DNA of 32,360 bases, taken from NCBI GenBank assembly GCA_002723195.1, contig PBNR01000081.1:1-32360 (forward strand), in the 5' to 3' direction. A program made the translations under genes and the position numbers. The notes under the pieces were generated by a model. That model was not told the origin of the DNA and did no database searches. It worked only from the letters and a program-made list of their open reading frames with translations. Every line of letters begins with the position of its first letter. Position 1 is the stretch's first letter. This document shows, piece by piece, positions 21,628 to 32,360 of the stretch. The DNA is from Gammaproteobacteria bacterium (GTDB lineage: Bacteria; Pseudomonadota; Gammaproteobacteria; Pseudomonadales; Pseudohongiellaceae).

Positions 21628-22452
21628 ATGCAAGACAAACCGAAACAAAGGAAAATGCGCTCAGAAGCACGAAAACGGATCCTGCTTCCAAAAGCAGAGT
21701 GGAAACGCTATCGAAAATGGCGAAAAGACATAGAGGTAGGTCCGTACCGACCTTTCTTTGAAACCCATCAACTCCACTCGACGGGGCGTAAACACAAGTT
21801 TTTCTGTCCAAAGCAGCAACGAATTGTGCATTTGATGTCAGATGGTGAGTATAAGGTATATCAGGACATGATTTGGCGCCCTGACGTGGTGTCTATCGAC
21901 GAGCAGTACGCCCTTGACATCAAAGAGACGTGGAAGATTTGTCAAGAACTCAAGATTCATCACCCATACGAGTACCAGCGCGATATTCATCACATTATGA
22001 GTACTGATCTTATCGTGACACTAAACCGAAGCGGAGCGTTGGTTAAAAGGGCACACCCTGTCAAATACGAGATAGAGCCGGGTGCCAATTCCCGGACTAA
22101 TAACAAGCTTAAAGTTGAAACGGCATTCTGGACGGCTCGGAATATTCCATGCGAGCCGATAAGCGCTGTCAGGGTCGATAAAAATTGGATAAAGCATCTT
22201 GATTTTCTATCGATGCACTATGATCCATCTCTGTCGAGTAATGAGCTAACGCAATTCAGTGGGTTGTTTGCAAAGCGTTGGGCTAAAGCACCAAAACTAC
22301 CACTGCGGGCCATACTTACTCAAATAGCGCAATTGATAGGTGTCCATCAATTCACGGCAGAGAAAGTTTTTAAAAACGCGACCTTGGCTGGTCTTATTCC
22401 TCTCAAAGCACCGGTGCCACTGGTGTACCACAAACCCGTTTTGTTAGCTTAA
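21628..22452 (+). CDS. tnsA: TnsA-like endonuclease
   Basis: SDGEYKVYQDMIWRPDVVSIDEQYAL, STDLIVTL, HPVKYEIEPG; immediately upstream of tnsB. Confidence 0.85.
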   Translation: MQDKPKQRKMRSEARKRILLPKAEWKRYRKWRKDIEVGPYRPFFETHQLHSTGRKHKFFCPKQQRIVHLMSDGEYKVYQDMIWRPDVVSIDEQYALDIKETWKICQELKIHHPYEYQRDIHHIMSTDLIVTLNRSGALVKRAHPVKYEIEPGANSRTNNKLKVETAFWTARNIPCEPISAVRVDKNWIKHLDFLSMHYDPSLSSNELTQFSGLFAKRWAKAPKLPLRAILTQIAQLIGVHQFTAEKVFKNATLAGLIPLKAPVPLVYHKPVLLA

Positions 22453-22461
22453 GGAGGAAGC

Positions 22462-24786
22462 ATGCCGGTAAGACTTACACTTGTAAAATTTAAAGATACT
22501 TTTGATATTCCCACTGGATTTGGAAAAAAGGACGATGTTTTCGGCATCTGTTATATCGATTCCCTGACACTTAGTGTCGGGGTTGCCAACTACACCCAGT
22601 ATTTGGGGTACTCTCATGATACTGAGACTTTCGAACTAAAAAACCGTCAGGCACAGCCGTCTAAACCTCGCCTTTTCAGTCGCACTGAATTTGCCGAGGC
22701 CTTCGATATCATTAAAAAAGGTGATGATGCGCAAACCGTTATTATGCCGCAATTTCTGGGACTGTCTGATGAGGAATTACTAACTACTCGAACGAAAGAA
22801 TGGTTAAGCCGCCGTGATAAGGCGTTAGAGGTAATCAGGCCATTACTGCCCCAAGAGCATTATGAGCTCAGTTATTTTGTGATGCGATATCTTAGAGGTG
22901 AAGCGCATCAGGAAATAAAACAATATTGTTTAGAGGGAGGGCATGGGTCTACCACAACGATTACACGTAAACTAAATCTTTATATTGTATTTGGTTTCAC
23001 GGCGAATGCATTGCTGCCATTTGGTTTCGAATTCTGTGGTACTGAGAAGAGGGCGATTGATGGTAATAGCGAGACCAAGACCAAAAAAAACACCAAACGC
23101 AGGAAACGTGGGCGCCCCGGTACTTATTCAAATAACCGAGGGGCAAACGAGTCAGACAAAAGGATCATCAAGGATTTGATTCGAGATAACAAAGTATCGC
23201 TGCGAGGTGGAAAATTAGATATTTCTCGGCTCTATGATGAATATGTAGTTCGCTATGAAGATAAATTCGACTTACCTCACGCAACACTTAATAAGCAACG
23301 CAACTATGAATTTCCGTACCCAGAAAGCGAAATAATATCGCAAGATACGTTCAGGTATCATTTCAAAAAGCTTCTGCCTCTGGAAAAGTTTATTAAATTC
23401 AGGGATGGCCAGCATAAGTTTGATAAAGACCACAGGCCAAAGCGCGGAGACGCAAAAGATGGCGTCGTAGGTGCGGGCCATGTTGTTGAATTCGACCATA
23501 CGCAATTAGATTTGCACGCAAGAATGCCCGGTGTACATGACAAGCGTTTCTCTGCTGGCCGCCCTTGGCTAGTTATCGCCAAAGACGTTTACACTAAATT
23601 TATCCTTGGCTTCCACATCAGTTTCCGACCACCCTGCTGGGATAATATCGCGGAATGCATCATTAATTGCGTAGAGAACAAAGTCGAATTTGCTGCTCGC
23701 TATGGTGTTGAGTTAGCAGAGCGAGACTGGCCGTCGCGTCATCTGCACATGCTTTATAAAATTGATAATGGCGTTGAGTATCCGCATGAGCAGGAAAGTG
23801 AAATCATGGCATCGCCCTTTAAATTTCAGGGAAGTCAGCAAGTAGCGAAAGGGCGTGGCGATCTGAAGGCTGATTCGGAAAGTACGCTCGGAAAACTCAA
23901 CAGAATTGTCTCCAATAATCCCGGAGGGATTGATACGGGCAAAGATGCTATGGAACAGGACGCAAGTCAACAAGCGCTGTTAACGATTGAAGACATCACG
24001 GCACAGTTGATAGATGAAATTGTCTTGATGAACAAAACCGCAGACCGCGAGTGTTCATTGGACCAAGACATGCTTGCAGCGGGTGTTGAACCAACGCCAC
24101 TTGCGCAATGGAATTACAGTATTGAGCATCAAATGTCCGGCGGAAATCCGGTGTCTAAAGCGCAAATTCCGGAGCTTCAATATACATTATTGCCCAAACA
24201 AATGGCACGAATTGATGCTGATGGGATCACACTAAAAAAATACCCTCAACTGCAATATGACGGTGAATTCAAAGCGCTGGAAAATTGGTATTTACAGAAA
24301 AAGCACAAGGCTGCTGGTGCCATGTCTGAAATCAAGGTAGCTATAGCTAGTGGCAGTATTAAGCGTGTCTATTACCGAGACAACAACACAATCTACCCAC
24401 TCGACCTAAAGGCGCAAAATTCGCAATATGAAGATATGAGCTTTTTTGAATTTGAGCAGTCCGTGAAGGCACGTAAGCAAATTCAGCGTGATAGAAAAAA
24501 CAGCCAGCAGGCAGGACGGGTATATAACAAGCGACGCCAAAAAGAGCGTATAGAAGCTAACCAAGCGGTATTGGCAGGTGTGCCTTCTAATTCGCAGCGG
24601 AGTTATCAAAAGGAAATCAAAAATCACAATAGTATTATGCGTGGCGAACAAGCCTGTAGGGATGCACACAGAATCAATGAGTACATGTCACCTAATTTTC
24701 CTGAGCAGAGTGCAAACCCTTTAGAGCCGACCGCATGTGACTCTAAGGCACCTACTAAACCAAAATCATCAAGGGAGTTTTTCTAA
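22462..24786 (+). CDS. tnsB: TnsB-like DDE transposase
   Basis: VVEFDHTQLDLHARM, YKIDNGVEY, KADSESTLGKLNRI (DDE triad); 774 aa. Confidence 0.93.
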   Translation: MPVRLTLVKFKDTFDIPTGFGKKDDVFGICYIDSLTLSVGVANYTQYLGYSHDTETFELKNRQAQPSKPRLFSRTEFAEAFDIIKKGDDAQTVIMPQFLGLSDEELLTTRTKEWLSRRDKALEVIRPLLPQEHYELSYFVMRYLRGEAHQEIKQYCLEGGHGSTTTITRKLNLYIVFGFTANALLPFGFEFCGTEKRAIDGNSETKTKKNTKRRKRGRPGTYSNNRGANESDKRIIKDLIRDNKVSLRGGKLDISRLYDEYVVRYEDKFDLPHATLNKQRNYEFPYPESEIISQDTFRYHFKKLLPLEKFIKFRDGQHKFDKDHRPKRGDAKDGVVGAGHVVEFDHTQLDLHARMPGVHDKRFSAGRPWLVIAKDVYTKFILGFHISFRPPCWDNIAECIINCVENKVEFAARYGVELAERDWPSRHLHMLYKIDNGVEYPHEQESEIMASPFKFQGSQQVAKGRGDLKADSESTLGKLNRIVSNNPGGIDTGKDAMEQDASQQALLTIEDITAQLIDEIVLMNKTADRECSLDQDMLAAGVEPTPLAQWNYSIEHQMSGGNPVSKAQIPELQYTLLPKQMARIDADGITLKKYPQLQYDGEFKALENWYLQKKHKAAGAMSEIKVAIASGSIKRVYYRDNNTIYPLDLKAQNSQYEDMSFFEFEQSVKARKQIQRDRKNSQQAGRVYNKRRQKERIEANQAVLAGVPSNSQRSYQKEIKNHNSIMRGEQACRDAHRINEYMSPNFPEQSANPLEPTACDSKAPTKPKSSREFF

Positions 24787-26168
24787 TGTCATTTGCCGAA
24801 CCCTACGAGTGGTATCCAGCAGAGTATCGGACTCACTTTGACATTCAATGTCAGGGGAACCCTCTAATCGAAGCTCTATATCCTCAATACAGTGAAACGG
24901 AGTTTCAAAGTTTTATCACCAATACTCCCGAGCTGCCTCATAACTTTTTCAACCTGCCATTTGAGCATGCGCAACGTTCTATAAAGCGACTAGAAAAAGC
25001 GTATATTCCATCGCCACTTGATTATGAAATATATCGTCATATTCACAGTGAAATGGTCAACGGCTATGTGCATCGAAACCCGATAACACCCATGCAACAG
25101 GCGAAAATGCTTGGTGTCGCAAGAGGGCAGTTTGTGCCAAATCCACATAATAATAAGCAGACAGCGAGTGGCAGTTGTACCCTGCTATCTGGTATCTCTG
25201 GTATTGGAAAGACTGAAAGAGTCCAACTTATCCTTAAAATGTTCCAGCCCGTTATTCGGCACGAGCTGTATCAGGGACACCCTTTGATTATTGACCAAGT
25301 GCCCACAGTATCTTTCGAAATTTCAAACCTAAAAAGCGTCAAAGCGCTTGGCGTTAACTTTTTCAAGGCTACTGATAAGCTCGTAGGCACGAACTATACG
25401 CAGCAGTGGTATAAGGGTAAACAAGCAACGTATGCATTTCTAATCGAGATGCAGCTACTCGCTGAACGTTTCGGTATTGGCATCACGCACATTGACGAAT
25501 GCCAAAAATTGCTGGCAGAAGCTAAAAAAGACGACTCGCCTACCATCCAATATCTCGAGTCACTTTTTAACAACGTGGGTGTCCCCATTATCATGACCAG
25601 CACGGAAGAGGGCGTTGAACTTTTTGATAGCAAGAGTAACTCGGATGACGAGTCGCTTAGAAAGTTCACGACAACTCGGCGTCTTACCTCTGGGCGGGAC
25701 ATTCGGTGTGAAAGACTGTCTCTTTTTGATGATGAGTTTCAACAGTTCATTGATTGCTTTCTCCCACCATATTTATTTGACCGCACGCCCGCCCGATCTG
25801 AGGAGTTTAAAGCTCAATTGTATGATTACAGCCAAGGCGTACATCAGGTATTGAACAAACTGTTGCGTCTATTTCTGGATAACCTCCATCGCAAACGTCC
25901 TGAAGCGAGTCAATACAGTGATGTTCTCAAGGCCGTTTTTGATAATCAGTTTCGAAAACTCAAGCCTGCGCTTCGCGCATTAAAAAACAAGAGTGCTCAG
26001 GCGTATGAATTGGAAATGGAGAAACTCAGGGACTACAAAGATGATGAACTATCTCAGATGCGAGACGATAAGTTTGAATTAGCCGGTGAGCCTCTCGAAC
26101 CACGGACCTTACATACTAGCGTAAAAGGACCGCGAGTATGTTCGGAGAGGGAGTTGAGAAAACTATGA
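24786..26168 (+). CDS. tnsC: TnsC-like AAA+ regulator
   Basis: Walker A LLSGISGIGKTERVQLIL, Walker B GITHIDECQKL; overlaps the tnsB stop codon by one base. Confidence 0.92.
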   Translation: MSFAEPYEWYPAEYRTHFDIQCQGNPLIEALYPQYSETEFQSFITNTPELPHNFFNLPFEHAQRSIKRLEKAYIPSPLDYEIYRHIHSEMVNGYVHRNPITPMQQAKMLGVARGQFVPNPHNNKQTASGSCTLLSGISGIGKTERVQLILKMFQPVIRHELYQGHPLIIDQVPTVSFEISNLKSVKALGVNFFKATDKLVGTNYTQQWYKGKQATYAFLIEMQLLAERFGIGITHIDECQKLLAEAKKDDSPTIQYLESLFNNVGVPIIMTSTEEGVELFDSKSNSDDESLRKFTTTRRLTSGRDIRCERLSLFDDEFQQFIDCFLPPYLFDRTPARSEEFKAQLYDYSQGVHQVLNKLLRLFLDNLHRKRPEASQYSDVLKAVFDNQFRKLKPALRALKNKSAQAYELEMEKLRDYKDDELSQMRDDKFELAGEPLEPRTLHTSVKGPRVCSERELRKL

Positions 26169-27115
26169 CTTCATCAAAGCCTCGTTTTTTTCCGGTATTG
26201 CTTGATGGCGAATTTTTATACGGAACGATAACAAGATGGGCGGTTACTCAATCAGCCGTCCCCAAAATGCAATCAATTAACTCGAGAAAAGTGAAAACAA
26301 AAAACGCAACAGTGGACATCAGTGGCAAATGGATTGAGGTTGTTTCTACTATGACATCTGTCGACTTTACCCAATATGGTTCTGTATTAGAAAAAGCTAC
26401 TCAATTGCCTCTGTACAATACGTTTTTTAATGAACGACGAGCGCTTACCTACGCTTTGCCGGGTGAATATGCAGTTGCCACTGAGACAGCGCATAGTTTC
26501 CTGCGATATTGCCCTGTCTGTTTGAAGGAAAATGTGTCGACGTCTGGGCTTGGCTTTTGGAAAAACCTTCACCAGTCGCCGTTGCTACTGAGATGTCCTT
26601 TCCACAACACGAGATTAATCGCTTATCAAAAGGCAACGGCTGAGTTTCGCCGTCCATACTTACTTGAAATTAATGGTATTACTGATTTATGGCATGTTGA
26701 AGCGTGTTCAATTGACGCTCTTACTGATTTTCAGCAATGGTTAGAAACGCTGGCATTGAATAAAAAATTGTACCAGTGTCGAGGGTTAGCAAAGTCGATT
26801 ATTCAGCACCTCACTACGCTTTTAGGCACGCCTGACGATATTCGACAAGCCAGAAAAAGAAATACTAAACAGGTAGATTTCGATACTTCTGCTTTTGCGT
26901 ACAAGATTAGACAAGCCGGATATGAGGCGTTTCTTAAACGGGGCACTCGTTCCATTAATGAAATAAAGAGAGATCCTAAGTTTAGCCTTACTCAGATACT
27001 TTCACACCGCAAACGCTACTCGCCTGTCTTTTACCTTTTGCTGGTATGGGTGTTTTTAGGCCCCGACTTTATCGAATCGCAGACAATAGAACATAACGAG
27101 AGTAAGTGTGCGTAG
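26165..27115 (+). CDS. tniQ: TniQ-family protein (first copy)
   Basis: Zn-binding region YCPVCLKENVSTSGLGFWKNLHQSPLLLRCPFHNTRLIAY; start MTSSKPRF overlaps tnsC stop (ATGA). Confidence 0.85.
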   Translation: MTSSKPRFFPVLLDGEFLYGTITRWAVTQSAVPKMQSINSRKVKTKNATVDISGKWIEVVSTMTSVDFTQYGSVLEKATQLPLYNTFFNERRALTYALPGEYAVATETAHSFLRYCPVCLKENVSTSGLGFWKNLHQSPLLLRCPFHNTRLIAYQKATAEFRRPYLLEINGITDLWHVEACSIDALTDFQQWLETLALNKKLYQCRGLAKSIIQHLTTLLGTPDDIRQARKRNTKQVDFDTSAFAYKIRQAGYEAFLKRGTRSINEIKRDPKFSLTQILSHRKRYSPVFYLLLVWVFLGPDFIESQTIEHNESKCA

Positions 27116-28565
27116 TGTTCAACTGGGACGCTTTTTCCCAAGGCCATTTGCAGATGAGGCCCTGTTTAGCGTGATCCAGAGGGTCGTCCTTACTCACGGG
27201 GGAGGAAAGGATAAGCGCATCGTATCAGCACTATTTGGCTCACGCTCTCTTCAGTTTTGCTCGCAATTTCCTTCCGTCATTCCTCACTTAAAAGGCCAAA
27301 GTAACATTCCTTGCGATAGTTGGATTACAGAACACACTGTGTTGCCAATTTATCGCCTTTTTACCCCTCAAAAACGGTATGAGAGTGCAGTCGACGCGCT
27401 TAAAGTTGGCAAAGGCAACCATGTATTTAAAGCGCTCGGTATCACTGCGTCCAGAGAAAAGCTTACGCCTATAGCGAAATATTGCCCGCAGTGTGCACAG
27501 GCAGATGAAAAGAACTCTGGATTAGCATATTGGCATATCGGACACCAGTTACCCGGTTTAACCCACTGTGTTTTTCACAATGAACGTTTGTCTGTCATGT
27601 GTCTTAGTAGGAAGAAATTTGATGTTTGGCCTATAGTCAGCGATAGTAAATCGATAAAGGCACCCGAAGGTAGCGAAGCTGAACGTCACTTGTCATTGCT
27701 GATTAATGAGTCATTTATATTAGGCAAGACTGTAGGCCTGATACCTGATCTATATGAGCGTTACTTTTCAAGGCTGATCGCAAGAGGATTTACTACATCT
27801 TGTGGACATCTCAGGCTGCAACAGTTGCGGACAGAAATGTCAGCTTTCTGGCAAGGGCTGTCATATCATCCGTGTTTTAAGGATGCACTCTCAACGCAGC
27901 ACAGCCTTCCATTTCCCTCCAATCTTTTTGCCTATCAAGACGCTTGTCATTCCCCCATCAAACACTTGCTTCTGATAGGATTCTTGTTTGGTGATATCGC
28001 TACGCTAATGTCATTTCCAAATACCTCAGAACGGGTAAAAAAGTGTCCGCCAGTGACAAAGGTTCGGAAGCCAGAAGCTGACATTGAGGCGACCATTGTA
28101 GATGCATTGACAAGTGGACTGAGCTTAAGGAAAGTGTCAGAAAAGTTTCGTGTATCTATCGGATTTGTTAAAAAAGTGGCTGTAATACACAAAATTGAAC
28201 TCGATCTTCGTCCGCAGAAGATATTTAGACCAGAGCAAGATGAAATAATCGACAAACTGGCTCTTGGTTATCCAACTCAAGATATTGCCAAGCAGTGTCA
28301 TTGCTCAATAGGAGCTATTGAAACGATTTTGAGCCAGCACCCAGATATTGTTGAGTTGAGAGCAGATACTCGAAAGCTACGAAAGCGTGAGCGAATGCGC
28401 TTATCTCTTTTGACTACGATCAATGAGTTACAAAGCCCGCGACGCAATGACATAAAATTAAAAAATGGGACAGCTTACATGTGGTTGTACAAACATGACA
28501 AAGTTTGGTTATACGATCATCTGCCCGCTCAAATACCAAGATGTTACCGACGTAGTAAGATCTGA
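27108..28565 (+). CDS. tnsD: TniQ/TnsD-family target-selection protein (second copy)
   Basis: FFPRPFADEALFSVIQRVVLTHGG, YCPQCAQADEKNSGLAYWHIGHQLPGLTHCVFHNERL; C-terminal HTH-like repeats GLSLRKVSEKFRVSIGFVKKVAVIH and GYPTQDIAKQCHCSIGAIETIL. Confidence 0.85.
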   Translation: MRSVQLGRFFPRPFADEALFSVIQRVVLTHGGGKDKRIVSALFGSRSLQFCSQFPSVIPHLKGQSNIPCDSWITEHTVLPIYRLFTPQKRYESAVDALKVGKGNHVFKALGITASREKLTPIAKYCPQCAQADEKNSGLAYWHIGHQLPGLTHCVFHNERLSVMCLSRKKFDVWPIVSDSKSIKAPEGSEAERHLSLLINESFILGKTVGLIPDLYERYFSRLIARGFTTSCGHLRLQQLRTEMSAFWQGLSYHPCFKDALSTQHSLPFPSNLFAYQDACHSPIKHLLLIGFLFGDIATLMSFPNTSERVKKCPPVTKVRKPEADIEATIVDALTSGLSLRKVSEKFRVSIGFVKKVAVIHKIELDLRPQKIFRPEQDEIIDKLALGYPTQDIAKQCHCSIGAIETILSQHPDIVELRADTRKLRKRERMRLSLLTTINELQSPRRNDIKLKNGTAYMWLYKHDKVWLYDHLPAQIPRCYRRSKI

Positions 28566-28803: not shown

Positions 28804-28941
28804 TGTTCACAAACTAATTTTTGTGAGCTTTATGAGGCTCTTTGTATAATTTTTGGTGTTCACAAACTTATTTCATTTGTTACTGCCCTCTAGCCTTTAT
28901 TCTATAAGGGGTGTGTTCACAGACTTATTTATATTTCGTCA
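28804..28941. repeat. Right transposon end with three dispersed TnsB-like sites
   Basis: gttcacaaactaattt 28804..28819, gttcacaaacttattt 28858..28873, gttcacagacttattt 28915..28930; inverted relative to the left-end sites, 54-57 nt spacing. Confidence 0.8.
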
Positions 28942-28946
28942 TGTTT
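28942..28946. repeat. Right copy of putative 5-bp target-site duplication TGTTT
   Basis: See 30..34. Confidence 0.75.
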
Positions 28947-29023
28947 GTGCAGCGTAATTAAGTCCGCGACCGGAAATAATTAAGTCTGCGACAACAATTA
29001 ACTCTGCGACTGGAAGGTCAAAT
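28946..29023. repeat. Second class of terminus-like array, direct repeat copy 2
   Basis: Sites at 28956..28970, 28978..28992, 28996..29010; begins TGTGCAGCG like copy 1. Confidence 0.85.
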
Positions 29024-29033
29024 AAAATAGAAT

Positions 29034-29060
29034 CAAAACCCGCTTTTTTGCGGGTTTTTT
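29034..29060. terminator. Rho-independent terminator
   Basis: caaaacccgc-tttttt-gcgggtttttt; counterpart of the hairpin at 226..254. Confidence 0.75.
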
Positions 29061-29411
29061 AGTATTTTCTTTCGGGGTGATCAAGCTGGCCCTATTTTAA
29101 ACCAATTGTGCCTAACAAGGTTTCGGTTAGCTTATTCAATTAATTCTATTTTCGAAAACTTCATCCCAAATAGGATAAGCATCTTGATTTATAAAAAAGT
29201 TGACTCTTAGGACACCCTTTGGTAGTCTACAAATCGAGCAGGAGTTATCTTCTGTTGCGTGCTCTTTCAAAATTCATCTCTTATTACTAAGAACTGCAAA
29301 AGGCTGCGAAGCCGTTCGCTTGATTTTTATTATGTGAACTAACTTTTCCAACATAAGGCAATGCCCGTGTGACATTGGTTGAGCGTTACATCTCAATCGG
29401 TAAGTGTCCAA

Positions 29412-29552
29412 GGTTAAGCAATCATCGTGGAATCACGTTAGATTTGGGCGGGAAAGTCCAGAGTAATTTTCTCTGGTGGTATTGGTCTGGTTTGTCTACG
29501 GCACTTCATTTCGGTTCCGGTAAAGCTAATGGGCGGGGGTTTTCCCTTAACC
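29412..29552 (+). ncRNA. Putative structured RNA upstream of the RT module (candidate retron msr/msd region)
   Basis: ggttaag (29412..29418) pairs with cttaacc (29546..29552); internal hairpins cgtg-gaat-cacg and ccagag-taatttt-ctctgg (29458..29476); gggaaa/tttccc pairing. Hand folding only. Confidence 0.35.
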
Positions 29553-29575
29553 GTGATAGCAAAGAGGTGTTTCAC

Positions 29576-29782
29576 ATGAAAGATCAAACGTTGAAAGCAT
29601 TGAAAGATGCTAGAGATAAATGCGCAAGAACCGTAGACAAAAGTACATTGGACGAACTCGATAAGGCAATTTTCAGTCTTGAGAGCCAATCATGTTGTAA
29701 ATCTAGTCAGGATAAATGGCTAGCCGTAGCGGTGAGAATACTGTTTCTCATTAAGTTGTTGGCTGGCTTCGATACTGAGTAG
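29576..29782 (+). CDS. Small protein with C-terminal hydrophobic helix (68 aa)
   Basis: RBS-like agaggtg, ATG 29576; MKDQTLKALKDARDKCARTVDKSTLDELDKAIFSLESQSCCKSSQDKWLAVAVRILFLIKLLAGFDTE. The longer ORF start at 29369 is probably not used. Confidence 0.5.
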   Translation: MKDQTLKALKDARDKCARTVDKSTLDELDKAIFSLESQSCCKSSQDKWLAVAVRILFLIKLLAGFDTE

Positions 29783-29823
29783 ATGCACAAAGTGACTACT
29801 ATCCAATCGTACAACCAGCCAAC
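29758..29823 (+). ncRNA. Long imperfect hairpin between the small ORF and XRE gene
   Basis: gttggctgg (29758..29766)/ccagccaac (29815..29823), cgat/atcg, agtag/ctact, cac-aaa-gtg nested. Confidence 0.4.
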
Positions 29824-29850
29824 TAAATCCATTGATTCTTGAGGTATAGT

Positions 29851-30126
29851 ATGTTGATTGGAAAAACGCTTAAAGAGATCAGAAGTGCCAAAGGCCTTTC
29901 ATTGGCCGCATTGGCTGAAAAATCAAATACTACGAAGTCATATCTTTCAAAGATAGAAAATGAAAAGCGCGATGCTTCTATTTCTACTATACGTGCTGTT
30001 TGTAAAGCGCTGGGAGTTCCACTTAACATATTCATTTTACTTTCAGAGGATGTCGAAGAAGACGAATATTTTGAGCTTAACATTACGTTAAAAGAGTTGG
30101 CTCGAAAGTATGTCATCACAAATTGA
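29851..30126 (+). CDS. XRE-family HTH protein of the RT module
   Basis: MLIGKTLKEIRSAKGLSLAALAEKSNTTKSYLSKIENEKRDASISTIRAVCKALGVPLNIFI; overlaps RT start by 17 nt. Confidence 0.85.
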   Translation: MLIGKTLKEIRSAKGLSLAALAEKSNTTKSYLSKIENEKRDASISTIRAVCKALGVPLNIFILLSEDVEEDEYFELNITLKELARKYVITN

Positions 30127-31225
30127 GTACCCTCAAGCAGGCATTGCGTCAATTGACTCGCTAGCAAGCGCTTTACGGATCCCATCAATTGAGCTTGTTG
30201 CGTTAGCTAACAACACGTCAAATTTATACCGAATATCAAAACAGATTGAAAAAGATGATGGATCAAAAAGAATAACCTATGACGCCTTACCTCCTTTAAA
30301 GATCGTATTATCAAATTTCAGGAAGCGAATTATTGATAAGGTTCTACTTCCAGAATATATATCGGCAGGTAAAAAAGGTAAATGCTACATAGATAATGCC
30401 GAAGTTCATGCTGGGAGCAAGGGACTATTGTCAGAGGATATCAAAAACTTTTTTCCTCAGGTTAGTTTTAAAAGTGTATTTGAAGCCTTCAAATATTTAT
30501 ACAAAATGTCGCCAGAAGTAGCTGAAGTAGCTGCTTTATTGTGTACTAAAGATGGTTATCTTGTTCAGGGTAGTCCTGTTAGCGGCTCGCTAGCTAATAT
30601 CATTTTTTATGCCAAAGAACCGTTATTGGTAGACAGACTTAAACTATTGGGCTTTCGCTACACGCGATATTACGATGATGTTCATGTTAGTCATGAATCA
30701 GCTGACTTTAGTCGTCACATTGGAGAACTTAGAACGAAAGTGTACGGGATTTTTCTTTCTCAAGGTCTTCAACCTCATAGAACTGCTAAAAAAAGTTATT
30801 ACGCGAATAGCAGCAGACGGATGTCTGTGCATGGCATTGTAACAAACAATGAGAAAATAAAGGCAAACCCCAAGAAGGTCTCAGACACTAGAGCGATGCT
30901 TTTTAAATTTGAACGATTGCTTGAAACAGATTACACAATTGACTCAGTAGTTAGCCTTTACAGGTCAATCAGAGGAAAAATACAAACCTTGAAAGCACAA
31001 GGCTCAACGAAGAGTGAAGCTTATCTCAAAACCCTCAACTCCCTGATGAGAAAAGTAGATGAGACCAAAGCTAAAAAGTTTGTACGAAAAGTCAGGAAAG
31101 TTAAGACTAGAAAGGAGTACAACAAGCTTTCATCAAAGTTATCAGTATTAAAAAAAATAAACGTCAAGGTCACGAGGGTTGTAAAAATAGAATGTGATTT
31201 GGCCAGAAAATCGCTTAAGGCTTGA
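30110..31225 (+). CDS. Retron-type reverse transcriptase
   Basis: NAEVH (retron NAxxH-like), DIKNFFPQVSFKSVF, QGSPVSGSLANIIF, YYDDVHVS catalytic box; VHGIVTN in place of the usual VTG motif. Confidence 0.85.
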   Translation: MSSQIEYPQAGIASIDSLASALRIPSIELVALANNTSNLYRISKQIEKDDGSKRITYDALPPLKIVLSNFRKRIIDKVLLPEYISAGKKGKCYIDNAEVHAGSKGLLSEDIKNFFPQVSFKSVFEAFKYLYKMSPEVAEVAALLCTKDGYLVQGSPVSGSLANIIFYAKEPLLVDRLKLLGFRYTRYYDDVHVSHESADFSRHIGELRTKVYGIFLSQGLQPHRTAKKSYYANSSRRMSVHGIVTNNEKIKANPKKVSDTRAMLFKFERLLETDYTIDSVVSLYRSIRGKIQTLKAQGSTKSEAYLKTLNSLMRKVDETKAKKFVRKVRKVKTRKEYNKLSSKLSVLKKINVKVTRVVKIECDLARKSLKA

Positions 31226-31400: not shown

Positions 31401-32360
31401 CTAACTATTGCTGATAGATACTTGACCGTTCATAAGCATAGGCAGAAGCCAGTCACGTAGTTGAATTAATTTTTGATTTTCAAGTTCTGCTAAACTTTGA
31501 CGTTCGGCAATACTTTCCATTCTATTGGTAAATAGCTCTATTATTGTGGCTGTGGGTAGACAGACCTTGACCGTCTTCAAAGTCGAGCCTGAAACTTCTT
31601 TGAATGTAGAACCAGACGAATACTGAACTATTGCCTTCATCACATGCTTAGCGGTATAAAAAATAAAATTGGATGAGAAGCCCTTATTTGGGATAAACGA
31701 TTTAAAGCCCTGATTAGTAGTTAAGCTGTTGCGAGCAATAGCCAAATAACCAATTGGTGCTCTGGAACTCATTAAAACTGTGCCTTTGGGGTATACTTTG
31801 AGAGAAGCTGATTTTATACCCGCATCACTAACGTTTTGCTCTCCGCGTGAGATGAATTTGTTGCCTACATTCTTAGATAGGTCTTTTGGTGTTATCCACG
31901 GGGTTCCATTTTCGCAAAAATTAGTTGAAACAGTTGTAGATGGGGTACTTCCCCCTACAATTTGCCCTAAATCATTCAATGTTCCAGCGCTCCACCCCTC
32001 AGGAATTTCGCGTTTAAGCTCTTCGCTGTACACCATCTTGCCGGTGGAGGATTTGTAGGGGTTGCCGTTGGCGTCGGGGAAGTCGAATTGTACGAACCAG
32101 TAGTCGTAAATGAGCTTGGCCATGGCTTCTAGCTCGGCATTGATTTTGTTGTTGAGGTCTATTTTTTCTTCTATTGCCCATAATAAGTTTCTGACGGCAA
32201 TCTGCGACTGCTTATCTTCAATAGCAGGAACAGCCATCTCGTGCAACTCATTACGATTGACTCCGGGAACGGCGCTCTTGTCAGAAGTTCGAATTCGGCC
32301 AATGCAGCTTAGAAGGTAGTAAATGTACTTGGGGTCGTTACCTTTGAAGTCCTTGACATA
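31401..32360 (-). CDS. hsdS: Second HsdS, 5' end cut by the window edge
   Basis: Same central region as the first HsdS, C-terminal IQLRDWLLPMLMNGQ; frame open to the window end; 32005..32360 aligns gap-free with 2401..2756. Confidence 0.9.
   Translation of the reverse strand, partial: YVKDFKGNDPKYIYYLLSCIGRIRTSDKSAVPGVNRNELHEMAVPAIEDKQSQIAVRNLLWAIEEKIDLNNKINAELEAMAKLIYDYWFVQFDFPDANGNPYKSSTGKMVYSEELKREIPEGWSAGTLNDLGQIVGGSTPSTTVSTNFCENGTPWITPKDLSKNVGNKFISRGEQNVSDAGIKSASLKVYPKGTVLMSSRAPIGYLAIARNSLTTNQGFKSFIPNKGFSSNFIFYTAKHVMKAIVQYSSGSTFKEVSGSTLKTVKVCLPTATIIELFTNRMESIAERQSLAELENQKLIQLRDWLLPMLMNGQVSISNS

Follow-up and report, generated by a model that had tools for sequence, protein, structure and literature searches.

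A type VI retron in which the small-protein gene probably lies within the msr-msd template RNA

Retrons are reverse-transcriptase systems that protect bacteria against phages. A retron in a gammaproteobacterial contig very probably carries the open reading frame (ORF) of its small protein (SP) inside its msr-msd RNA. We found this arrangement in the window, by which we mean the entire 32,360-nt stretch of DNA that was analyzed, and the reading is based on the identities of the genes, on protein-level selection in the SP families, and on co-variation of four helices (P1 to P4) with the SP ORF nested among them. The best explanation of the whole may be that one RNA serves as both msr-msd template and SP message, with silencing and a trigger; we regard this full account as evenly poised between right and wrong. 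The three-gene set of type VI retrons is already known; the new part is the RNA anatomy, which comes from comparison with ~24 relatives.

The locus (Table 1) is a single operon in which the genes for SP (68 amino acids), an XRE protein, and a retron reverse transcriptase (RT) follow one another head to tail, the RT start overlapping the end of the XRE gene by 17 nt. The classification of retrons into types is reportedly that of Mestre et al. 2020. PADLOC profiles place all three genes in retron type VI (RT_VI, 4e-70; HTH_VI, 2.3e-23; SP_VI, 1.8e-5), and the runner-up for the RT, RT_V (1e-50), trails RT_VI by 63 bits. The Pfam model RVT_1 scored slightly below its cutoff on the RT, the nearest solved structure was that of the retron Ec86 RT (9e-17), and the match to the Drt2 model was weak (3e-5, 23 bits against a cutoff of 390). 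The RT contains NAEVH, VQGSPVS, YYDD, and VHG, so that the catalytic DD is kept together with NAxxH and a VTG-like motif. Type VI has been described as comprising an RT, a DNA-binding protein, and a small auxiliary protein (PMC8541194). The window has an RT of the type VI clade, an HTH (XRE) gene upstream of it, and the small auxiliary SP, and it shares with retrons in general a retron-type RT with catalytic DD and an a1/a2-insulated structured RNA adjoining the RT gene. We are nearly certain that the locus belongs to type VI. A sequence-only reading of this DNA had proposed a retron-like module, of type VI, with the small ORF as a possible effector, and the independent profiles for all three genes bear it out; the NAEVH, QGSP, and YYDD motifs and the XRE overlap that it reported are present. 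It had also called YYDD and VHG notable deviations; neither is a strong anomaly, and both fall within the variation of the type. YYDD was found only in the window locus and its two near-copies, position 2 of this motif varies (V, I, or A) among SP-bearing type VI RTs, and VHG is also present in two relatives (L028 and L047). Because type VI RTs vary at these positions, YYDD and VHG were rejected as proof of a deviant RT.

Table 1. Features of the retron locus, in coordinates of the window
Feature	Position	Strand	Remarks
Putative promoter	29200-29228	+	-35 TTGACT (29200-29205), weak -10 TAGTCT (29223-29228); position conserved in relatives
Degenerate XRE operator TTGACTCTTAGGACA	29200-29214	+	Window copy 9/13, not above chance
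rrn-like boxB hairpin	29237-29256	+	7-8 bp, followed by boxA-like element
boxA-like element TGCTCTTTCAAA	29260-29271	+	Downstream of boxB hairpin
a1, 5' strand of P1	29482-29491	+	Partner strand 29814-29822; mean pair probability 0.91-0.96 across four sizes of fragment
P2 5' strand (TTGTCTACGG)	29492-29501	+	Partner strand 29631-29640, in the SP ORF; mean pair probability 0.94
P3 hairpin, can hide SP Shine-Dalgarno	29502-29569	+	29502-29507 x 29564-29569 and 29512-29516 x 29549-29553; local fold of the window
SP	29576-29782	+	68-aa small protein, hydrophobic C-terminus, probable effector; ORF within predicted msr-msd
P2 3' strand	29631-29640	+	Inside the SP ORF, codons ~19-22
Predicted msd domain, 170 nt	29643-29812	+	From SP codon 23 through the stop and 30 nt beyond; P4 closes it
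a2, 3' strand of P1	29813-29822	+	Co-variation across loci and pair probability
XRE/HTH_VI protein	29851-30126	+	91 aa; PADLOC HTH_VI 2.3e-23, Pfam HTH_3 2.7e-17; probable autorepressor
Retron reverse transcriptase, type VI	30110-31225	+	371 aa; PADLOC RT_VI 4e-70

Relatives were drawn from whole genomes searched with RT_VI and from plasmids and phages. The plasmid search yielded relatives at the protein level but none at the DNA level, and a scan of viral contigs found none. Among the control genomes, the RT_VI profile also matched, at strict cutoffs, in the archaeon Methanosarcina acetivorans. RT phylogeny, which the sequence-only reading had named as a check, placed the window RT with the other loci of its SP family, SP1. 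SP1 and a second, unrelated family of small proteins, SP2, each need only one change on the RT tree (20 and 6 rows, respectively), and the sister group of SP1 is a clade (L039, L040, and L050) with a third small hydrophobic protein, SP3, and without an HTH gene. The window RT is distant from the other members, on a long branch with ~33% identity to its nearest noncopies. It has near-copies in L001, from another MAG (RT 95% identical), and in L011; between the promoter and the HTH gene the window and its near-copy have just 6 differences, and these two loci therefore add no independent test. Those 6 changes lie in ~910 nt (29200-29782 and 29851-30109), against 60 changes in 1,099 nt of the RT gene of L001, which reflects either recombination or a far tighter constraint on the part upstream of the RT. 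L001 is filed as a Halobacteriovorax MAG, a placement that reflects transfer or mis-binning, and L011 is in a genome of the window's class. Another type VI locus, L049, has an additional ORF between a2 and the HTH gene (~792-1112, oriented).

Close pairs of relatives gave pN/pS values of 0.24 to 0.35 for the SP families, and since this is selection at the protein level, SP is a real protein and not RNA alone. An SP1 alignment of the window SP with 16 relatives has a conserved N-terminal helical region. The C-terminal hydrophobic stretch noticed earlier in the 68-residue protein spans residues 49 to 63 (mean Kyte-Doolittle hydropathy of 2.4); hydropathy is moderate in several SP1 relatives. PADLOC recognized SP1 but gave no match for SP2 and SP3 proteins, of which four were tried. 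SP is probably the effector, a toxin.

Retron RNAs are insulated by inverted repeats, a1 and a2, beside which the RT starts at a guanosine (PMC8989520). For P1 of the window alone, a shuffle test of a1/a2 was not significant, and we therefore moved the claim to tests of cognate against noncognate partners over the relatives, in which the pairing of a segment with its own partner is compared with its pairing with the partners of other loci, keeping composition and requiring no alignment. Co-variation of a1 with a2 peaked between the region from -125 to -50 of the SP start and the region from +0 to +50 of the SP stop (z of ~9). With the a2 side fixed there was no second peak, and with the a1 side fixed the single other peak coincided with P2. 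None of 100,000 permutations reached the signal of the cognate a1/a2 pairs (21 loci) or that of the SP1 loci minus the window, and for SP2 alone the true pairing was the best of 120. In the leader upstream of SP no comparable co-varying repeat pair was found (best z, 2.8), and a conventional msr-msd upstream of SP was rejected on this ground. Taken together, the peak and the lack of a comparable leader pair indicate that a1 and a2 flank the SP gene, with a1 ~90 nt upstream of its start and a2 directly past its stop. Thus, the a1/a2-insulated RNA contains the SP ORF, and the bracketed stretch is not noncoding. This alters the earlier picture of a structured leader, a small ORF, and an RT as separate modules: the leader is indeed folded, but the relevant RNA (29482-29822) starts inside it and ends past the SP stop, and the comparative evidence makes the 3' part of the leader and the small ORF one RNA. 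A window-specific complement of a2 near the 3' end of SP was also rejected, being absent across the relatives and not formed in the ensemble.

Two further long-range helices reach into the SP ORF, within which an earlier exploratory scan had indicated pairing. P2 links the segment right after a1 to the ORF (z of 9 and 0 of 20,000 permutations in SP1 loci; 0 of 100,000 without anchoring on a1) and is 8 to 15 bp long in most loci, as in L029 (GCATCGAGTTG x CAACTCGATGC) and L034 (ACTATCCAAAGTATT x GATACTTTGGATAGT). Under a null of synonymous recoding, run locus by locus, the mean z for P2 was only 1.1 to 1.5 and the window did no better than its recodings; because the fixed protein keeps much of the helix under recoding, this null was not used as support. 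Candidate branch guanosines in the 5' strand of P2 are 29494, 29500, and 29501, and in most SP1 loci a G stands at or near the P1/P2 boundary. P4 (29643-29652 x 29802-29812; mean pair probability, 0.97 to 1.0) closes the rest of the SP ORF, a domain of ~170 nt, against the bases directly 5' of a2. The base of this helix co-varies with a z of 5.7 in SP1 (0 of 20,000) and of 7.8 over all loci, shifted-window controls being flat with one exception at a z of 2.6, and in six loci (L005, L006, L007, L013, L031, and L042) the SP stop codon falls within its 3' arm. P3, the hairpin over the Shine-Dalgarno sequence, co-varies across loci with a z of 8.4; in the window it competes with the inner part of P2. 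The same RNA plan is found in SP1 and in the unrelated SP2 loci. P1 and P2 are also found in SP3 loci, where P4 was not found with the search as set up.

Folding of single sequences agreed with this plan. The window fragment from 29478 to 29826 folds at -113.3 kcal/mol (z of -5.6; none of 100 shuffles was equally stable), and its unconstrained fold joins P1, P2, and P4 in a junction that leaves hardly any base unpaired; with fragments of up to 895 nt, P1 and P2 still have pair probabilities above 0.9. In single-sequence folds of fragments cut at a1/a2, the msd-like domain started at +69 to +85 of SP in 15 of 15 SP1 loci and ended next to a2 in 14 of them. The window's own helices are not each beyond chance under every null, and the argument is carried by the relatives. 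Phage-borne type VI elements also have complementary segments around the small ORF, as judged by inspection after the main analysis, strongest in L055 (P1, 9 bp) and in L056 and L057 (P2, 8 to 9 bp). An Rfam scan of the region returned no family at or near its gathering score.

These helices could have a more limited meaning. P1 to P4 might only control translation of the SP message, perhaps while bound by the RT, with the template elsewhere or with no stable RT-DNA made. The RNA does sequester the Shine-Dalgarno sequence and take in coding region, and P1 and P2 could form an RT-binding translational switch that involves no copying. However, the RT retains the catalytic DD, the retron motif NAxxH, and one of VxG type; the order at the junction is that of retrons (a1, msr, msd, and a2), with the msd directly before a2; and the leader yielded no other repeat pair. 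We consider translational control without templating improbable and return to the nested msr-msd.

In the mechanism that we propose, the msr would consist of the 5' untranslated region and SP codons 1 to 22 and the msd of the remaining SP coding sequence with its stop, up to a2; P1 would bracket SP, and P2 would tie the base of the msr to codons 19 to 22. By analogy with known retrons, the RT would recognize this fold and begin at a guanosine next to a1, copying from the a2 edge backwards into the SP ORF. Both RT-DNA synthesis beside a1/a2 and removal of the template by RNase H1 are general retron features (PMC8989520), and the host enzyme would then remove the copied RNA. Because the predicted msd corresponds to the last two thirds of SP, the RT-DNA, of at most ~170 nt, would be antisense to that part of the message, which we think likely. 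Known RT-DNAs measure ~40 to 160 nt (PMC8989520), so the predicted 170 nt would match or exceed the longest of them. With the message made antisense and removed by RNase H1, reverse transcription would be a plausible antitoxin: since SP is encoded inside the copied RNA, copying could itself switch the toxin off, and our confidence that it does so is evenly divided. SP translation would be blocked twice, once by folding, which can sequester the Shine-Dalgarno sequence, and once by conversion of the hydrophobic part's coding sequence into DNA. A phage that blocks the RT, exhausts the dNTP pool, or destroys or occupies the RT-DNA would let intact message accumulate, and SP would then be made and damage the membrane, in the manner of abortive infection.

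The same nested anatomy and the same RT-DNA might instead serve control at the protein level. SP would then be produced in small amounts and kept inactive by a complex of RT, msr, and RT-DNA, phage damage would free it, and the overlap would keep toxin and template linked. In characterized retrons, a complex of RT, noncoding RNA, and RT-DNA does hold the effector (PMC12548924; PMC13405049), and the conserved N-terminal helical region of SP1 could bind a partner. However, msd copying with RNase H would eliminate the message for SP, which would set producer and template in competition; the Shine-Dalgarno hairpin points to translational control, and the RNA plan is common to three unrelated small proteins. 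We consider protein-level control rather unlikely and retain silencing by copying as the working model.

The XRE protein is probably an autorepressor of the operon, as judged from the motif TTGACTGNCAGTNAA, which occurs at the -35 region in 11 to 13 of the 13 SP1 relatives with an HTH gene and is absent from both relatives without one. The putative promoter was not listed by a consensus promoter scan. Most SP1 loci have, as rRNA leaders do, a variable 7- to 8-bp hairpin followed by a boxA-like TGCTCTTTAA; both elements are absent from SP2 loci. They may be an antitermination site for the long untranslated leader and would in that case keep transcription running through the untranslated stretch. 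XRE proteins are regulators or antitoxins in other defense systems, and the XRE protein could accordingly be the effector or sensor here, with SP as accessory or antitoxin, which the only moderate hydrophobicity of several SP1 proteins would suit. We consider this very improbable: L014, L037, and the SP3 clade keep a small protein and an RT without an HTH gene, and the two SP1 relatives without the HTH gene lack the operator motif, as would be seen with an autorepressor.

By inspection, the neighbors of the retron are those of a defense island (hsdRMS and McrBC-like genes). A Tn7-like element (40-136, 21628-28565, and 28804-28930) has TnsA-like, TnsC-like, TniQ, and TnsD genes and inverted end repeats (TGTTCACAAACTTATTT) on both sides. 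The contig starts with the sequence that ends a gcvP-like gene in L001, so the insertion is seemingly at the 3' end of gcvP. A second segment resembling a transposon end, with three AATTAAGTCTGCGAC repeats, is present in two copies (91% identical) at 139-254 and 28946-29061; the latter is directly 5' of the retron, and the segment also precedes the retron in L001 and L011. These observations point to an array of Tn7-like elements that carries the retron as cargo. Segments of the same hsdS gene, 95% identical, lie at 2387-2756 and 31991-32360, and the end of the contig interrupts the latter, which makes a second or phase-variable hsdS adjoining the retron likely.

The locus has the three genes of retron type VI as defined by PADLOC (RT_VI, HTH_VI, and SP_VI) in the same order, and its SP matches SP_VI; it differs in the long branch of its RT and in its degenerate XRE operator. 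In the literature searched, mostly open-access texts other than the type classification, we found neither a description of an SP inside msr-msd nor a paper on the mechanism of type VI retrons. Retron-Eco1/Ec86 and other characterized retrons have in common with this locus the retron RT motifs and the a1/a2 repeats around a folded template (PMC8989520), but in those retrons the template is a noncoding RNA and the effector a separate gene, whereas here the template would be the effector's own coding sequence. There is a functional analogy with type I toxin-antitoxin systems, which likewise combine a small hydrophobic protein, a structured leader with a sequestered Shine-Dalgarno sequence, and an antisense nucleic acid; there the antisense is RNA, and here we propose DNA that the RT makes from the same message. 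In DRT2, too, expression of a toxic ORF is linked to reverse transcription (PMC12039810), but there the cDNA creates the gene; in the window, the template would already contain an intact ORF, which copying would silence.

Should the effector ORF serve as template, this would be a new way to silence a toxin, in which the message is copied into DNA. Predictions of retron noncoding RNAs can then overlook a coding template, synonymous substitutions in small toxins of this sort would not be neutral, and a retron type that is hard to annotate gains a concrete msr/msd map. More tentatively, and with slightly less than even confidence, we suggest that type VI retrons may be toxin-antitoxin systems at the nucleic acid level, with reverse transcription as the antitoxin and unrelated small toxins plugged into one RNA scaffold.
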